Positions 27,071 through 61,426 of a stretch of DNA of 64,000 bases are shown piece after piece (position 1 is the stretch's first letter; every line of letters starts with the position of its first letter). The stretch covers positions 1-64,000 of the forward strand of contig NZ_JANQBA010000013.1 of NCBI RefSeq assembly GCF_025490915.1, written 5' to 3'. A model generated the notes under the pieces. That model was given only the letters and a program-made list of their open reading frames with translations. It ran no database searches and had not been told where the DNA came from. Origin of the DNA: Lacticaseibacillus parakribbianus (GTDB lineage Bacteria > Bacillota > Bacilli > Lactobacillales > Lactobacillaceae). Both the position numbers and the translations under genes were made by a program.

Positions 27071-27143
27071 GGGTCCGTAGCTCAGCTGGGAGAGCGCTGC
27101 CTTCGCATGGCAGAGGTCGAGAGTTCGAATCTCTTCGGATCCA
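27071..27143 (+). tRNA. tRNA-Ala (anticodon CGC)
   Basis: 73 nt with complete cloverleaf. The acceptor arm GGGTCCG/CGGATCC includes the alanine identity pair G3:U70. D arm is GCTCAGCTGGGAGAGC, anticodon stem CTGCC/GGCAG around TTCGCAT, and T arm GAGAGTTCGAATCTC. CCA is not encoded. Confidence 0.93.
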
Positions 27144-27172
27144 TTTGCACCACCATATAGGCAACAACTTTT

Positions 27173-27245
<73 letters not shown>

Positions 27246-31022: not shown

Positions 31023-31844
31023 ATGGCCAATGAATTTCCACAAGTTCTGACTATCGCGGGGGTTGACAGCGACGGCTCGGCCGGCGCCCAGGCGGATCTG
31101 CACAGCTTCTTCATGCGCGGCACTTACGGCACCTTGATTCTGACCGCCGCGGTCGCCGGTAACTCCTACGGCATTCACGATGCCGCCCTGATGACCAACA
31201 CCTTCATCGATCACCAATTCGACGCCTTGGCCGCCGATCTCAAGATTCGCGCCTGCAAAACCGGCATGCTGGCCAACGCCGCGATGATCTCAGACGTCGC
31301 GCGGAACCTGACCAAGTACGACTTCGGACCGCTGGTGCTCGATCCGGTGATTTCGACCAAGCACGGCAACCTGCTGATGGAAAGCGACGCCTTCGAGACG
31401 CTCAAAAAGGAGCTGATCCCGCTGGCGACGGTGATTACCCCGAATTTCTACGAGGCGGAACACCTGACCGGCATGACGCTGGACACCCCGGAGCAGATTG
31501 TCGAAGCCGCCCAGGCCATCCGCGCGATGGGGGCCAAGAACGTGGTGCTCAAAGGGCGCCACGACAGCGACCAGCAGACCGAGGTTCGCGATTACGTGAT
31601 GCTTGAAAGCGGCCGCGCCTTTTGGCTGACCGGCCCCTACTTCGCCACCGACCGCAAGAACGGCACCGGCGACTCGCTGTCTGCGGTCATCACCGCGGAG
31701 CTTGGCAAGGGCAACAGCGTTGAGGACGCGATCCGCATCGCCAAGCGCTTCGTCGACACCGCCATCCAAAACGAGATCGCCGTCGGCCACCAGTTCGGCC
31801 CAATCAACCACTGGGCGAATCCGCTGGTCCATCCCAGGGCGTAG
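31023..31844 (+). CDS. ThiD/PdxK-type kinase (hydroxymethylpyrimidine or pyridoxine kinase)
   Basis: 273 residues of the ribokinase-like ThiD/PdxK family: TIAGVDSDGSAGAQADLHSF near the N-terminus, the VLDPVISTKHG segment, KGRHDSD, and NGTGDSLSAVI with the catalytic Asp. Cys and HMP-type residues do not decide between HMP(-P) kinase and pyridoxal kinase; Lactobacillaceae often have one enzyme for pyridoxine. ATG 31023 after AAAGGGGGATA. The final codons and the TAG stop lie inside the first unit of the downstream repeat array, so the C-terminus (HPRA) was set by the repeat. Confidence 0.87.
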   Translation: MANEFPQVLTIAGVDSDGSAGAQADLHSFFMRGTYGTLILTAAVAGNSYGIHDAALMTNTFIDHQFDALAADLKIRACKTGMLANAAMISDVARNLTKYDFGPLVLDPVISTKHGNLLMESDAFETLKKELIPLATVITPNFYEAEHLTGMTLDTPEQIVEAAQAIRAMGAKNVVLKGRHDSDQQTEVRDYVMLESGRAFWLTGPYFATDRKNGTGDSLSAVITAELGKGNSVEDAIRIAKRFVDTAIQNEIAVGHQFGPINHWANPLVHPRA

Positions 31845-32142
31845 TGCCGCGCTTTTAGCGGGACGCTTAGCTTAGCCGTGGCGCTTGGGCCCGATCCTGG
31901 CCCGAGTGACGCGGCGTAGCTAAACGCTCCCGCGTTGCGGCATGAAGCCCGACGACCCAGGGCGTAACGCCGCGCTTTTAGCGGGACGCTTAGCCTAGCC
32001 GTGGTGCTTGGGCCCGACCCTGGCCCGAGTGACGCGGCGCAGCTAAACGCTCCCGCGTTGCGGCGTGAAGCCCGACGACCCAGGGCGTAACGCCGCGCTT
32101 TTAGCGGGACGGTTAGCTTAGCCGTGACGCTTGGGCCCGACC
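31833..32142. repeat. Structured intergenic repeat array, locus 1 (2 full and 1 partial 123-bp unit)
   Basis: Units start at 31833, 31956 and 32079 (period 123 bp); the third stops inside the element. Each opens CCCAGGGCG and closes AGCCCGACGA. Between them nested inverted repeats fold into one long hairpin: GGGC/GCCC, then a 7-bp stem (GTGCCGC/GCGGCAT in unit 1, ACGCCGC/GCGGCGT in unit 2), then AGCGGGACGCTTAGC with GCTAAACGCTCCCGC and an apical GGGCC/GGCCC stem. The changes in the 7-bp stem are compensatory. It belongs to the same family as the array at 54252-54930. Confidence 0.93.
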
Positions 32143-32163: not shown

Positions 32164-32204
32164 AAAAACGGCAGTCCCCGCGAGGTTTTGGGAACTGCCG
32201 TTTT
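32164..32204 (-). terminator. Terminator of the DUF308 gene
   Basis: On the minus strand AAAACGGCAGTTCCC pairs with GGGGACTGCCGTTTTT. Confidence 0.8.
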
Positions 32205-32215
32205 GATGTCTTGAT

Positions 32216-43565: not shown

Positions 43566-43879
43566 GGTGTCATCTCCTCGTTGCTCACAGTCTACGCTTG
43601 CCGCCCGGGCCGGGCAAGGCCGTTCGGCGCCGCTCAACCGTGCCGCTGCCTGCCGCCGGCTGTCACCGGCGCGTGGTTGAGGCCGACCACCCACCTGGTC
43701 GCCGGCAGAGTCAGATCGGGCGGTGCCGCTTCGGCTTCGTCGAGCGCCAACCGGCAACGCGGGAGCGCCTAGCTCGGACCGGCACTCGCGGCCAGGTTCG
43801 GGCCGCAATCACCACCCCTACGCTACCCGCCCCGCTCAATTCGCCGGCCGCCGCTCTGGCTCAAAAATCAGTCTCAGGG
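43566..43879. other. ~310 bp GC-rich intergenic stretch with no gene
   Basis: No ORF with a ribosome binding site. Several inverted repeats are visible, for example CTCAACC at 43634-43640 with GGTTGAG at 43676-43682 around a GCCGG/CCGGC core. Sequence composition is GC-rich like the coding regions, so it may be decayed coding sequence. No match to the structured repeat family seen elsewhere. Confidence 0.5.
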
Positions 43880-52173: not shown

Positions 52174-53343
52174 ATGAAGACAAACTTTGATTTTCTGATG
52201 CCAAGCGTCAACTTCTTTGGCCCCGGCGTCATCGCCAAAATCGGTGAGCGAGCCCAGATGCTGAACATGCACCACCCCTTGATTGTCACCGACAAGTTCC
52301 TGCAGGGCGTTGCCAACGGCCCGGTTGCCCAGACCCTCGCCTCGCTGGACGCGGCCGGCATTACCTACGCCGTCTACAACGCGGTCGAGCCCAACCCCAA
52401 GGTTCGCAACATTCAGGCGGCCAAGGCGCTGTACCTGGCCGAACACTGCGACAGCATCATCACCGTCGGCGGCGGCTCGGCTCACGACACCGGCAAGGGG
52501 ACCGGCATCATTTTGACCAACGGCGACGACATAACCGCCTTGGCCGGCATCGAGACCCTGACGGCGGCGCTGCCACCGCTGATGGCCGTCAACACCACCG
52601 CCGGCACCGGCTCCGAGCTGACGCGCCACTGCGTCATCACCAACGAGGCCACGCACCTGAAGTTCGTGGTGGTGTCTTGGCGCAACATCCCGCTGGTGTC
52701 CTTCAACGACCCGGCCCTGCAGCTGGACGTGCCGGCCAAGCTGACCGCCGCCACCGGCATGGACGCCTACGTGCAGGCCATCGAGCCCTACGTGTCGCTC
52801 AACCGCAACCCGATCACCGACGCCCAGTGCCTGCAGGCGATTCGCCTGATTGAAAAGCACCTGCGGCCGGCCGTTGCCAACGGCCACGACCTGGTGGCTC
52901 GCACCGGTATGGTCGAGGCCGAGATGCTGGCCGGCATGGCCTTCAACAACGCCGACCTGGGCTACGTCCATGCGATGGCCCATCAGCTGGGCGGCCAGTA
53001 CGACGCGCCGCACGGGGTCTGCTGCGCCTTGCTGCTGCCAATTGTCGAGCAGTACAACCTGCTGGCCTGCCCGGATCGGTTTGCTTCGCTGGCCTTGGCC
53101 ATGGGTGAAAACACTGCGGGGTTGACCACGCGCGAGGCCGCGGAGCTGGCGATCCGCCACATGCGGCAGATGGCCCAAGACGTCGGCATTCCCGCTTCCA
53201 TCAAGGCCTTAGGGGCCAAGCCGGTGGACTTTCCACTGATGGCCGAGAACGCCTTGAAGGACGGCAACGCCTTCTCCAATCCGCGCAAAGGCACCAAGGA
53301 AGAGCTGATCGCGCTATTTCAGGCGGCCTACGACGCCGAATAA
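52174..53343 (+). CDS. Iron-containing alcohol dehydrogenase
   Basis: 389 residues, group III (FucO/DhaT) type. NAD-binding VGGGSAHDTGKG, AVNTTAGTGSELT, ATGMDAYVQAIE (metal Asp), and MAHQLGGQYDAPHG (metal His ligands). Reduces an aldehyde, such as lactaldehyde or 3-hydroxypropanal, with NADH. ATG 52174 after CCGGAGG. An aldo/keto reductase gene follows after 65 bp, and fucosidase lies downstream, which makes lactaldehyde from fucose a tempting but unproven substrate. Confidence 0.9.
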   Translation: MKTNFDFLMPSVNFFGPGVIAKIGERAQMLNMHHPLIVTDKFLQGVANGPVAQTLASLDAAGITYAVYNAVEPNPKVRNIQAAKALYLAEHCDSIITVGGGSAHDTGKGTGIILTNGDDITALAGIETLTAALPPLMAVNTTAGTGSELTRHCVITNEATHLKFVVVSWRNIPLVSFNDPALQLDVPAKLTAATGMDAYVQAIEPYVSLNRNPITDAQCLQAIRLIEKHLRPAVANGHDLVARTGMVEAEMLAGMAFNNADLGYVHAMAHQLGGQYDAPHGVCCALLLPIVEQYNLLACPDRFASLALAMGENTAGLTTREAAELAIRHMRQMAQDVGIPASIKALGAKPVDFPLMAENALKDGNAFSNPRKGTKEELIALFQAAYDAE

Positions 53344-53408
53344 TGTTCGCCAGGCCCTCCCACGCGAGGGCCGTTTTGGCTACAATCATCTCGAAGGGAG
53401 TGTGTGTG

Positions 53409-54251
53409 ATGAAAAATACGCAGTTAGCCGGCCGGAAGGTGCCGGCGATGGGCATCGGCACCTGGTACCTCGGCGAAGGCAGCCCGGCGCAAACCGAGCA
53501 GGAAATCGCGAGCCTGAGATGCGGCCTCGACCACGGTCTGTCCGTGATCGACACCGCCGAGATGTACGGCGACGGCGCCGCGGAAACCCTAGTCGGTGAC
53601 GCGATTCGCGGCTACAATCGCGACGACCTGGTCGTCGTCTCCAAGTTTTACCCCTGGCATGCGACCGCGGCCAAGATGAAGGTCGCCCTGGCCGGCAGCT
53701 TGCACCGCCTCGGCCTCGATTACCTCGACTTGTACCTGCTGCACTGGCGCGGCTCAACGCCGCTGCGCGAAACGCTTGCCGGGATGCAGGCACTGCAGCA
53801 GGCCGGCCTCATCCGGGCGTTCGGCGTCTCCAATCTCGATGTCGCAGACCTCAAGGAGCTGGCGGCCCTGCCCGGCGGCGATCAGATTCAGGCCAACGAG
53901 GTCCTTTACAACCTGCAGTCGCGCGGCATTGAGTACGACCTGATGCCTTACCAGGCCAAGCGCGGCATCGGCCTGATCGGCTACTCACCATTCGGCTCCG
54001 GGGCCGGTCGCTCGATTCGCCTGCCGCGCCAGGTTCAAGAAATCGCTCGGGCCAAGCACCTGAGCGACCACCAGCTGGTGCTGGCTTGGACCATGCGCGA
54101 CCACGTGCTGAGCATCCCCAAGGCGGCGACCCCGGCTCACATGACAGAAAACCTCGCCGCCCGAGACGTCACCTTCACCCCAGACGAATTGGCCAGCATC
54201 GACCGCGCCTTCCGCCGGCCAACCCACAAACAGCCGCTGGAGATGATATAA
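53409..54251 (+). CDS. Aldo/keto reductase
   Basis: 280 residues. VPAMGIGTWYLGEGSPAQ, SVIDTAEMYGDGAAE (catalytic Asp and Tyr), VVSKFYPWHA (Lys), DLYLLHWRGS (His), and the C-terminal IPKAATPAHMTENLA NADP-binding segment. AKR family, probably reducing sugar or keto-aldehyde substrates with NADPH. ATG 53409 after AAGGGAG. The stop codon abuts the repeat array directly. Confidence 0.9.
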   Translation: MKNTQLAGRKVPAMGIGTWYLGEGSPAQTEQEIASLRCGLDHGLSVIDTAEMYGDGAAETLVGDAIRGYNRDDLVVVSKFYPWHATAAKMKVALAGSLHRLGLDYLDLYLLHWRGSTPLRETLAGMQALQQAGLIRAFGVSNLDVADLKELAALPGGDQIQANEVLYNLQSRGIEYDLMPYQAKRGIGLIGYSPFGSGAGRSIRLPRQVQEIARAKHLSDHQLVLAWTMRDHVLSIPKAATPAHMTENLAARDVTFTPDELASIDRAFRRPTHKQPLEMI

Positions 54252-54930
54252 CCAGGGCGAAGCGGGGCGCTTAGGCGACCGGCTAGCGTGAGGCTGGCAG
54301 CTGAGCCGCACTTGGCCCAGGTGACGGCCTGAGCTAGCCGCGTCGCCGATGCCCCGCGTGGCCCGACGAGAACCAGGGCGAAGCCAGGCGCCTTTAGCGG
54401 GACGGGTAGCCTAGCCGTGGTGCTTGGGGCCCGGGCTTGGCCCCGAGTGCCGCGGCGTCGCTACCCGCTCCCGCGTTGCCTGGTGTAGCCCGACGAACCA
54501 GGGCGAAGCGGGGCGCTTAGGCGACCGGCTAGCGTGAGGCTGGCAGCTGGGCCGCACTTGGCCCAGGTGACGGCCTGAGCTAGACGCGTCGCCGATGCCC
54601 CGCGTAGCCCGACGAGGACCAGGGCGAAGCCAGGCGCCTTTAGCGGGACGGGTAGCCTAGCCGTGGTGCTTGGGGCCCGGGCTTGGCCCCGAGTGCCGCG
54701 GCGTCGCTACCCGCTCCCGCGTTGCCTGGCGTAGCCCGACGAACCAGGGCGAAGTGCCGCGCAGTTAGCCAGTCGGCCAACACAAGGCTAGACATTGGGC
54801 CGCACTTGGCCCAGTGGCTGGCCTTAGCTGGACGCACTGGCGTTGCGGCACGTAGCCCGACGAACCAGGGCGAAGCCGGACGCTTAGGCGACCGGCTAGC
54901 GTGAGGCTGGCGGCGGCGCGGCGCCTGGCC
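54252..54930. repeat. Structured intergenic repeat array, locus 2 (A-B-A-B-C-A' units)
   Basis: Units start at 54251 (A1, 121 bp), 54372 (B1, 125 bp), 54497 (A2, 121), 54618 (B2, 125), 54743 (C, 121) and 54864 (A', partial, to about 54930). All begin ACCAGGGCGAAG and full units end TAGCCCGACGA (A1 TGGCCCGACGA). Between these ends A, B and C differ strongly in sequence but keep the same nested stem: GGGC/GCCC, then a 7-bp stem (A: GCGGGGC/GCCCCGC; B2: GCCAGGC/GCCTGGC; C: GTGCCGC/GCGGCAC), then further pairing blocks up to a GGCC/GGCC apex. No ORF. Same family as 31833-32142. Confidence 0.95.
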
Positions 54931-54944
54931 CAAAAATGTCCCGT

Positions 54945-54971
54945 GCCCGAAACCGTTTTCTCTGGTACACT
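54945..54971 (+). promoter_or_regulatory. Fucosidase promoter with overlapping cre site
   Basis: A -10 hexamer TACACT (54966-54971) follows a cre-like CGAAACCGTTTTCT (54948-54961), which misses the TGNAANCGNTNNCW consensus only at the first base. CcpA binding would cover the promoter spacer, as expected for carbon catabolite repression. Confidence 0.6.
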
Positions 54972-54990
54972 GGTCGCGGAGGCGAAACTA

Positions 54991-56013
54991 ATGACTGACA
55001 ATGTATCTTGGTTCAAGCAGGCGAAGTACGGCATGATGATTCACTGGGGACTCTACTCGCTGTTGGGTGGGGCCTACCGCGGTCAGGCGGCCAGCGCCTA
55101 CGCGGAGTGGATTCAGTCCAAGCTCCAGATTCCGATTGCCAACTACGCGCAGCTGGCCAAGGGCTTCAACCCGCTGTGCTTCGACGCCGACCGCATCGTC
55201 GCGCTGGCGCAGGACTGTGGCATGTCTTACCTCGTGGTCACCGCCAAGCACCACGACGGCTTTGCGATGTACGACTCGGCCGTGTCCGACTACAACGTCG
55301 TGGCGCAAACGCCGTTTCACCGCGACGTGATCGGTGAGCTCGCCGCGGCCTGCCGCCGCGCCGGGCTGCGCTTTGGCTTGTACTACTCGCAGGACCTCGA
55401 CTGGCACGAGCCCAACGGCGGCGGTTACCTGAGCAACGACGTGGGCAACTCCGGCACCACCTGGGACAACAGCTGGGACTTTCCCGACACGCGGCGCAAG
55501 GATTTTGCCCAGTGCTTTTCCGCCAAAATTCTGCCGCAGGTCACGGAGCTGATGCAAAACTACGGCGACATCGCCACCGCCTGGTTCGACGTGCCGATGA
55601 CGCTGAGCAAGGCCCAAAGCCAGGCCCTGTACGACACGGTCAAGCGCCTGCAGCCCGACTGCCTGATCAACTCGCGGTTGGGCAACGGCCAGTACGACTA
55701 CGTGGTGCTCGGCGACAACGAGATTCCCCAGGCGATCGACCCGGCCGCCACCACCAACGTGGATTACAACGACATCGGTGGCTTCAAGCCGTCGCCGCTG
55801 GGGCTGTACGAATCCGCCGGCACGATGAACGACTCCTGGGGCTTCTCCTACCAGGACCACAACTGGAAAACGCCGCAGCAGCTGGCGACCACGCTGCAAC
55901 ACCTGAACGGCCTGGGCATCAACTACCTGCTTAACGTTGGCCTGGATCCCCTCGGTCGCGTGCCGCTTGAGGCCGAGTCTCGGCTGCGGGAGGCCGCGGC
56001 CCTGACGCGCTGA
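54991..56013 (+). CDS. GH29 alpha-L-fucosidase
   Basis: 340 residues, without signal peptide, so cytosolic. WFKQAKYGMMIHWGLYS, TAKHHDGFAMYDS (substrate-binding His pair) and AWFDVPM (nucleophile Asp) are GH29 landmarks; the C-terminal barrel end reads GINYLLNVGLDPLGRVP. It releases L-fucose from short glycans. At 340 residues it lacks the C-terminal beta domain of many GH29 enzymes. ATG 54991 after GGAGGCGAAAC. Confidence 0.9.
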   Translation: MTDNVSWFKQAKYGMMIHWGLYSLLGGAYRGQAASAYAEWIQSKLQIPIANYAQLAKGFNPLCFDADRIVALAQDCGMSYLVVTAKHHDGFAMYDSAVSDYNVVAQTPFHRDVIGELAAACRRAGLRFGLYYSQDLDWHEPNGGGYLSNDVGNSGTTWDNSWDFPDTRRKDFAQCFSAKILPQVTELMQNYGDIATAWFDVPMTLSKAQSQALYDTVKRLQPDCLINSRLGNGQYDYVVLGDNEIPQAIDPAATTNVDYNDIGGFKPSPLGLYESAGTMNDSWGFSYQDHNWKTPQQLATTLQHLNGLGINYLLNVGLDPLGRVPLEAESRLREAAALTR

Positions 56014-60775: not shown

Positions 60776-60920
60776 GCTTGTGGCCGGCCGACGCTTGGCG
60801 TTGGCGAGCCTCGAAGCGCAATGCGGAAGCGGCCAGCGCCGCACCGCGAGTGGACTAAAGCCCAGACCCAGCACCGTTGCGGCGCTACCCGCTAAGATCG
60901 CCGGCCTGCGCTCTGGGCAC

Positions 60921-60946
60921 AAAAAAACCGCCATCACTGGCGGTTT
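60921..60946 (-). terminator. Terminator of the cold shock gene
   Basis: On the minus strand AAACCGCC-AGTGAT-GGCGGTTTTTTT. Confidence 0.88.
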
Positions 60947-60954
60947 CCTTTGTC

Positions 60955-61155
60955 TTACAGCTTGTTGACGTTAGCCGCCTGTGGGCCGCGGTCGGACTGT
61001 TCAACGTCGAAGCTTACGGCTTGGCCTTCGTCGAGGGTCTTGTAGCCGTCACCCTGGATAGCGGAGAAGTGAACGAAAACGTCCTTGCCGTCTTCACCAG
61101 TGATGAAGCCGTAACCCTTGTCAGCGTTGAACCATTTAACTGTACCTTGTTGCAT
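60955..61155 (-). CDS. Cold shock protein
   Basis: 66 residues. RNP1 KGYGFI and RNP2 DVFVHFSAI; start [13 protein letters not shown]. Single-stranded RNA chaperone. ATG 61155 after AAGGAGATTC. A -10 TATACT at 61271-61276 (minus) would give a leader of about 110 nt, as usual for csp genes whose 5'UTR is cold-responsive. Confidence 0.95.
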
Positions 61156-61276
61156 TGTATGAATCTCCTTCATATTAAACCTAATAGTGACAAACAGCCG
61201 GTAATCAATGAAAGAAATCCATTATGCTCAGAAACATCACAGCTCTCAATTCATCTATCACGGTACCTAAAGTATA
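61156..61276 (-). promoter_or_regulatory. Cold shock gene promoter and long 5' leader
   Basis: TATACT on the minus strand at 61271-61276 and an AT-rich leader of about 110 nt (with GGAAACCA-like and ATGATAG segments) before the ribosome binding site. No consensus -35. Secondary structure was not computed. Confidence 0.5.
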
Positions 61277-61426
61277 ACACGTCCGCGAAAAAAAACCTAA
61301 TCATTTGTGCGAGCATCGGCGCAAGCCCGGTCGAAATGGAAGCGTCACCAGCACAAACGCCGCGCCGGCGGGGCTGCGCTGAAAAAAACACCGGTCACCT
61401 TACGGCTAGTAAATTTTCTTACCAAC

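Follow-up and report, generated by a model that had tools for sequence, protein, structure and literature searches.

Probably Mobile Hairpin Repeats with Interchangeable Interiors in Lacticaseibacillus parakribbianus and Its Relatives

Directly behind an aldo/keto reductase gene of Lacticaseibacillus parakribbianus lies a tandem array of hairpin units, and we favour the view that these are non-autonomous, strand-specific mobile repeats, which are recognised by their structure, carry interchangeable cassettes and spread and turn over in Lacticaseibacillus and its relatives. At the level of sequence, the comparisons demonstrated occupied and empty sites, arrays whose 5′ ends lie flush with the edges of genes or transcription units, and differences in unit number. 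They likewise demonstrated differing cassettes between matching ends and flanks, and a fold that is conserved on one strand along with its internal loops and one G-U pair. A unit consists of two modules, namely its outer ends (a head and a tail of about 12 nt each with a closing stem of 4 bp) and a hairpin cassette of ~98 nt.

Hairpin Units in the Window

The window, that is the whole stretch of 64 kb that was analysed, contains the following units and adjoining gene.

53343..54251 (+): gene for an aldo/keto reductase (name based on sequence), the stop codon of which abuts the array; the relative G006 has a three-unit array there
54251..54369 (+): unit A1, full hairpin, starting at the TAA stop codon of the aldo/keto reductase gene
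54372..54496 (+): unit B1
54497..54615 (+): unit A2
54618..54742 (+): unit B2
54743..54863 (+): unit C
54864..about 54932 (+): truncated unit A′, which consists of just the head and the 5′ arm and closes the array at its 3′ end
31833..31955 (+): unit D1, which provides TAG (31842-31844) as stop codon for the gene that ends at 31844; no unit at this site in G006
31956..32078 (+): unit D2
32079..32142 (+): truncated unit D3; an ordinary hairpin resembling a terminator comes next at ~32165-32205 (by eye)
43737..43860 (−): single unit; a truncated unit at the same place in G006 (by eye)
60801..60917 (−): decayed single unit, directly after the T-run of a terminator; two intact units at the site in G006

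The order A-B-A-B-C-A′ of six units, proposed in the original prediction, was borne out between 54251 and about 54932 with the sixth unit truncated, and the stem sequences given there were correct, including ACGCCGC/GCGGCGT for stem 2 of D2. As a correction to the ends ascribed to the units, the first unit ends TGGCCCGACGA. The locus at 31.8 kb does carry the variant stem, and its real content was found to be two full units and a truncated third. The decayed unit at 60801-60917 is adjoined by a match to the Rfam cspA thermoregulator (60919-61326, −).

Conservation of the Fold

Each of the seven full window units was predicted to form one hairpin of ~120 nt with z values of −5.75 to −7.73 in comparison to its own shuffles; the two truncated units, A′ and D3, folded no better than shuffles (z of 0.20 and 0.19). 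From the outside inward, a unit comprises unpaired tails, a predicted 4-bp stem 1, a loop of three by three, and an 8-bp stem 2 whose closing G-U is invariant. Next come a loop that is asymmetric, with C, 0-2 nt and UUA opposite 2 nt, then the 6-bp stem 3 and finally inner arms that pair well and vary freely in their letters.

Changes on both sides were present in 15 of 38 predicted pairs of the seven full window units. Two larger alignments were analysed, both of them fitted to a covariance model so that the pair counts lean towards the structure. The first (A3) contained 132 units of the own genome with E ≤ 1e−8, a set not identical to the list of 147 units described below (a few extra, some absent). 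Here, standard pairing was found in 92.8% of cells versus 79.3% in shuffles, 22 of 30 pairs had changed on both sides, and the covariation score of 0.394 (0.155 when shuffled) was reached by none of 500 shuffles and dropped to 0.034-0.112 when the partner was slid. For 42 units of several species, the respective values were 93.4% versus 74.6% paired, 25 of 30 pairs changed on both sides and a covariation of 0.535 versus 0.179. These 42 units also served for the broader covariance model R2; as stem 3 of two divergent units was misplaced in the MAFFT alignment (A5), the model-fitted alignment A6 was used for R2. Under a tree-based null, for which evolution was simulated along a FastTree tree (60 simulations), 8 of 30 pairs were significant at E < 0.05 for 131 distinct own-genome units and 9 of 30 for the 42 units. 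Among the other column pairs, 12 of 7110 and 2 of 6991 passed, respectively, and six of those 12 join the 5′ tail to the 3′ tail. The claim that the fold and not the sequence is kept is strongly supported by this covariation above shuffles, slid controls and the tree-based null.

The G-U of stem 2 was retained in 129 of 131 own-genome units and in all 42 units of several species. As it would be C-A on the opposite strand, one strand (+) is the folded one. The earlier suggestion of RNA or a DNA cruciform is consequently narrowed: the kept G-U speaks against a cruciform, and a single-stranded form of the + strand, either RNA or ssDNA, is the better reading.

Complementarity might also be maintained without selection, by template switching during replication that copies one arm onto the other. 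Such correction of long palindromes is known, and the well-paired, freely varying innermost arms are what it would leave. Nevertheless, it would erase the asymmetric loops and the G-U, and interiors that resemble each other turn up in arrays whose ends differ (see below); we consider this explanation very unlikely.

Separate Behaviour of Ends and Interiors

Two end types were distinguished, type I (NCCAG...CGACGA) and type II (NAGAG...CGTTTA), with tails of the form NCCA or NAGA at the 5′ end and GACGN or GTTTN at the 3′ end; 5′ and 3′ tails go together. None of 30 arrays mixed the two types, units of unclear end type being omitted. Dropping pairs of more than 92% identity as recent duplicates, and in the three-genome comparison also A3 units shorter than 112 nt, we found the ends in the own genome to be 0.90 alike within the same array versus 0.67 between arrays, whereas the interiors were 0.70 alike in both cases. 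The same contrast was obtained in G006 and G020, with a permutation p < 0.0002 for the ends and interior values of p = 0.28 (own genome), 0.28 (G006) and 0.90 (G020). Resolved along the unit, tails, stem 1 and the first loop were 0.86-0.99 alike within an array versus 0.53-0.75 between arrays, and from stem 2 inward the similarity was nearly independent of the array (inner part 0.63 versus 0.62; 61 same-array pairs). Interiors up to 91% alike were found with ends only 48-57% alike.

Recent duplication of whole units was evident in 16 of 88 same-array pairs with more than 95% identity, A-B-A-B being one case. A simple account is duplication of a unit and replacement of its hairpin cassette, and arrays of the proposed mobile repeats may grow in this order. 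During copying or exchange, a trans-acting enzyme would recognise the folded + strand as ssDNA or RNA, and the fold would then be kept by paired changes whichever its orientation to transcription. However, tandem duplication, gene conversion and selection together could mimic cassette exchange.

Miniature units consisting of tails and stem 1 only (e.g., AGAGGGCGGAGCCCGT), some in tandem, were observed in the downstream flank of locus L284, and also in the upstream flanks of the own-genome clusters C23:37325 and C29:20343. They are likely hairpin deletions.

Abundance and Distribution

According to the original prediction, many covarying copies elsewhere in the genome would support a selected fold. 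Searching the own genome with a covariance model built from the seven window units (R1) yielded at least 147 units (150 of 1637 candidates were scored), which is the opposite of a genome holding no other copies. The units form 73 clusters, 30 of them single and 43 with two to seven units; splitting by strand and by a 400-nt gap gives the 75 clusters used below. Spacing within arrays is mostly 116-126 nt and unit length mostly 118-126 nt. A sequence pattern catching 89 of the 132 aligned units occurred 129 times in the own genome, with nine occurrences of the reversed control, so the true number of units is probably not many times larger.

The distribution is uneven. The 437-kb contig C1 contains one array and C2 to C4 none, in both the covariance-model and the pattern lists, and C23, C27, C28 and C29 are rich in arrays; this may follow how far a contig lies from the replication origin. 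By itself, the head motif of 12 bases has two exact occurrences in C1 and one in C4.

The named relatives of the reductase gene, the first of them with 60% identity, point to Lacticaseibacillus as the probable genus. Within the genus, R2 matched 29 of 30 genomes at E ≤ 0.001, including G025 with a single weak match (E = 6.7e−4). At least 118 matches were obtained in each of five genomes and dozens to at least 118 in many; nearly none were found in G011 (0), G025 (1), G009 (2) and G019 (2). Only a limited number of candidates was scored in each genome (118 in the genus, 87 in the family and class and 12 in the order scans, the last three with strict filters), so these counts are minimum values. 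At E ≤ 1e−6, 11 of 295 genomes of the order sample matched (6 of 74 genera, some of which belong to two other families). The family sample gave 7 of 41 genomes and 6 of 40 genera, and both samples together eight genera of Lactobacillales besides Lacticaseibacillus. The own genome was the sole match in the class sample of 41 genomes, with none in the 38 genomes from other orders of Bacilli.

A unit of G027 was matched in 15 plasmid records, L. rhamnosus, L. paracasei, Pediococcus acidilactici and P. inopinatus among them; the gene table, itself incomplete, lists no annotated feature under any of the 15 matches. One G027 unit had no match in phages, and the L250 unit none in plasmids. On the L. 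rhamnosus plasmid L256, a TPP riboswitch match (2345-2436, +) lies 64 nt before the unit at 2501.

Rfam searches over the window units and nine loci of relatives returned nothing above the gathering threshold, the best sub-threshold E value in 54100-55050 being 0.31, and no description of the hairpin family was found in the literature searched, in which subscription papers were mostly missing. The proposal of an unrecognised RNA class fits these results.

Positions of the Arrays

The 5′ ends of the arrays keep a constant phase, located at the hairpin base, and the 3′ ends do not. A significant partial unit follows the last unit in 53 of 75 clusters; 43 of these 53 partial units begin within 6 nt of the unit head, and 41 of the 43 are 20 to 94 nt long. 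Upstream, a match was found in only five of 75 clusters, representing three whole unlisted units, one tail of a miniature unit and one relic of an internal deletion. The first unit outscores the last in 25 of 42 arrays (p = 0.035), and decay towards the 3′ end of the array as in CRISPR is thus weak only.

The 5′ ends are flush with three kinds of sequence. In 22 of 75 clusters the array starts at a same-strand stop codon (−12 to +2 nt) compared to 2.37 expected (p = 1e−15), a background that counts positions inside gene ends too and rests on genes called by a simple codon-usage script, with some starts wrong and some genes missed. Some units provide the stop codon themselves, D1 at 31842-31844 being an example. 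Likewise, 15 of 75 start just after a T-run (1.45 expected) and 13 of 75 just after an anti-Shine-Dalgarno sequence, antisense and upstream of a gene (1.68 expected). The classes were defined by regular expressions, and two clusters count in two of them; a flush start of any class was obtained for 48 of 75 clusters and of none for 27, about eight of which merely follow another whole or miniature unit (by eye). In G006, 13 of 25 clusters start after a T-run (0.42 expected). The raw count for G027, G020 and plasmids was 7 of 25, G027 and G020 being represented by ten stretches each, picked from the best-scoring matches. Inspection by eye revealed no constant target tetranucleotide at the 5′ junction. 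Arrays in loci L083, L082, L077 and L101 start right after TGTCAA-like (reverse −35) or TATAATG sequences (by eye), and promoter edges may be a further landing place.

Between same-strand genes, 28 arrays lie in sense and 19 in antisense orientation (p = 0.24). A strand-specific fold combined with an overall orientation that shows no clear preference suggests a constraint in the life cycle of the element, not in the host mRNA. The two end types nevertheless differ, type I favouring sense (28:11) and type II antisense positions (11:23; p = 0.001), which cuts against this suggestion and would not be predicted for an orientation-blind mobile element.

Here, a different explanation has to be weighed, in which the hairpins are host RNA elements acting in transcripts at gene borders, with the fold kept for RNA function. 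They would shield 3′ ends, stop read-through or exonucleases, or determine the level at which the following gene is expressed. Conserved internal loops and an invariant G-U are typical of RNA, the excess of starts at stop codons and the sense preference of type I are in line with it, and mRNA stabilisation by Ype/Efa and REP hairpins has been preliminarily claimed, according to the part of PMC1590033 drawn on here. The balance of 28 sense to 19 antisense arrays argues against it, as do the many arrays beyond a T-run or antisense beside ribosome sites. A role as transcript end, in the form originally put forward, is not supported: the arrays often come after a terminator that is already in place, or run antisense to the adjacent gene. 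A role in read-through RNA is nevertheless possible.

Occupied and Empty Sites

Read in reverse, the sequence of the relative G006 is colinear with the window, and its identity amounts to 82-83% around the reductase gene and to 70-90% by aligned piece. Only this genome has units at 31.8 kb, where the gene end in G006 is intact and lacks a unit, and only G006 has units at 8.4, 34.8 and 51.1 kb, sites that are plain spacer here. These three G006 arrays adjoin a terminator, gene end or Shine-Dalgarno sequence common to both genomes, and the site at 40.6 kb resembles them less clearly (all by eye). Since a spacer of similar length persists on the 3′ side of the array at 34.8 and 51.1 kb (by eye), deletion is disfavoured as the cause of the flush starts at these two sites. 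No target-site duplication was noticed in the occupied/empty pairs, and the order of events suggested for them comes from comparison without an outgroup. In the G006 gap corresponding to the two tRNA genes at 27071-27245 (+), two units are present as well.

Where both genomes are occupied, the contents may differ. At the reductase stop codon, five units here face three in G006, and the ends of the two arrays are 0.88-0.92 alike, with interiors at 0.64-0.73 against a background of 0.68. The decayed unit at 60.8 kb is no closer to the units of G006 than background, its ends being only 0.67 alike. At the 75.5-kb site, ends are of type I here and of type II in G006, so that this site was probably filled twice.

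A recent exchange between closely matching flanks is suggested by the plasmids L258 and L268, whose flanks are 99.4% (795 nt) and 99.8% (460 nt) identical around units with ends 0.96 alike and interiors 0.75 alike; the P. inopinatus plasmid L272 has the L268 unit. Another site, of L. paracasei plasmids, holds two units and a relic, one unit, or the relic only, with constant junctions in the three plasmids. The Lb. plantarum copy of the L258/L268 site has only a 14-nt tail left, and this "empty" site therefore indicates loss, not a virgin site.

For a host RNA element, it is a point in favour that the reductase stop codon has an array here and in G006 despite differing interiors. On the other hand, sites differ between close relatives and G011, G025, G009 and G019 are nearly free of matches, and on balance we regard this explanation as unlikely. 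In the mobile-repeat reading, which we prefer, a benefit to the host from insulating or stabilising RNA would be secondary.

Known Systems and Candidate Enzymes

REP and BIME elements resemble the units as high-copy extragenic palindromes with unpaired tails that lie mostly downstream of coding regions, as far as they are described in the portions of PMC3733652 used here, to which the following statements on REPs also refer. Type I units, when read as their reverse complement, carry CGTC ahead of the stem, as in the CGTC super-family of REPs, for which the transposase is not known (PMC3733652). However, REPs measure 20-40 bp, whereas the units are about 120 nt long with several stems and set internal loops. 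CGTC REPs have stems of 8-9 bp and a CCA tail at the far end, and the tail order is opposite here. CGTC REPs form head-to-head dimers with negligible head-to-tail arrangement (PMC3733652), in contrast to the head-to-tail arrays of the units. Measured against the REP definition (20-40 bp and a GTAG or CGTC tag; for CGTC also an 8-9 bp stem, a CCA tail and head-to-head dimers), the units fall outside it. The word Lactobacillus is absent from the text of PMC3733652, which describes the GTAG and CGTC super-families.

The idea that the units are REP elements moved by a RAYT (Y1 HUH) transposase, raised in the original prediction, accounts for a high-copy extragenic hairpin with conserved unpaired tails. 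With Y1_Tnp (PF01797), no match was detected in the own genome, and the control matched in 5 of 14 genomes. This result, the head-to-tail tandem arrangement of units of about 120 nt and tails unlike those of REP descriptions (PMC3733652, in part) argue against a RAYT target in the own genome, and we consider it extremely improbable.

EFAR of Enterococcus faecalis, termed a MITE, and Efa-1 are likewise larger palindromic intergenic repeats of Lactobacillales, found preferentially near gene 3′ ends (PMC2267715, PMC1590033). Compared by description, Efa-1 is 163 nt long with two adjacent hairpins predicted (PMC1590033), and the units form one hairpin. The available portions of both reports mention neither tandem arrays nor array-specific ends nor swappable interiors, all of which the units have; the sole Lactobacillus therein is L. 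johnsonii, whose family Lac-1 lies in genes.

As to a comparison with MITEs, the unit is one palindrome, and no recurrent transposase-like gene was seen by eye beside the arrays in the 14 largest clusters obtained when the 299 proteins called in 55 loci were compared all against all. The largest of these clusters (12 proteins) comprised ABC-type ATPases as judged by eye, followed by two clusters of three and the rest of two, and several represent one gene from overlapping loci. The IS110 DEDD transposase (PF01548), which matches in 14 of 30 genus genomes, was not found in the own genome or G027, and an IS110-borne element was rejected.

A resemblance only is seen to CRISPR, in that an array-specific repeat (tail and head, about 24 nt) alternates with variable inserts of near-constant length; unlike CRISPR, the inserts are structured hairpins alike genome-wide, in about 75 small arrays per genome. 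In integron attC sites, structure is conserved with free sequence, and cassettes are arranged in arrays. The units share these features, again as a resemblance only, but contain no cassette genes and have an outer stem of 4 bp.

RNA copies inserted behind intrinsic terminators, in the manner of a retroelement or group IIC intron, would explain arrays starting right behind T-runs. Copies made from a + strand RNA by target priming are cut short at the 5′ end, whereas the arrays are truncated at the 3′ end, and many array starts lie away from T-runs. RVT_1 matched in 11 of 30 genus genomes and not in the own genome, G001, G006 or G027; the richest genomes thus differ from hosts of group IIC introns by having no reverse-transcriptase match, and membership in group II introns was rejected on this ground. 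Landing behind terminator hairpins is a known habit of group IIC introns (PMC4424553, in the part drawn on), and in locus L252 of the relative G145 (1785-2534, −, and 1235-1322, −) group II intron matches start ~160 nt upstream of a unit, with a BsrC sRNA match downstream. We rate retro-insertion as highly improbable.

Conclusions

The best reading is that of a family akin to REP and MITE repeats but of distinct design. It is possible, though in our judgement doubtful, that the units represent a new bacterial repeat system in which the ends belong to the site and the cassettes move around between genome and plasmids. A putative enzyme would swap these cassettes in the form of folded single strands, and the arrays would be placed at the outer borders of transcription units.

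Copies of the family are plentiful throughout a genus of food bacteria, including plasmids of L. paracasei and L. rhamnosus, and the covariance model allows annotators to label a family that has so far gone unmarked. Two questions are raised, namely how a palindrome of about 100 nt gets replaced in place with its ends and flanks staying, and why the starts of arrays seek the edges of transcription units. If a folded strand is indeed the substrate of the exchange, an enzyme that reads structure would await discovery.
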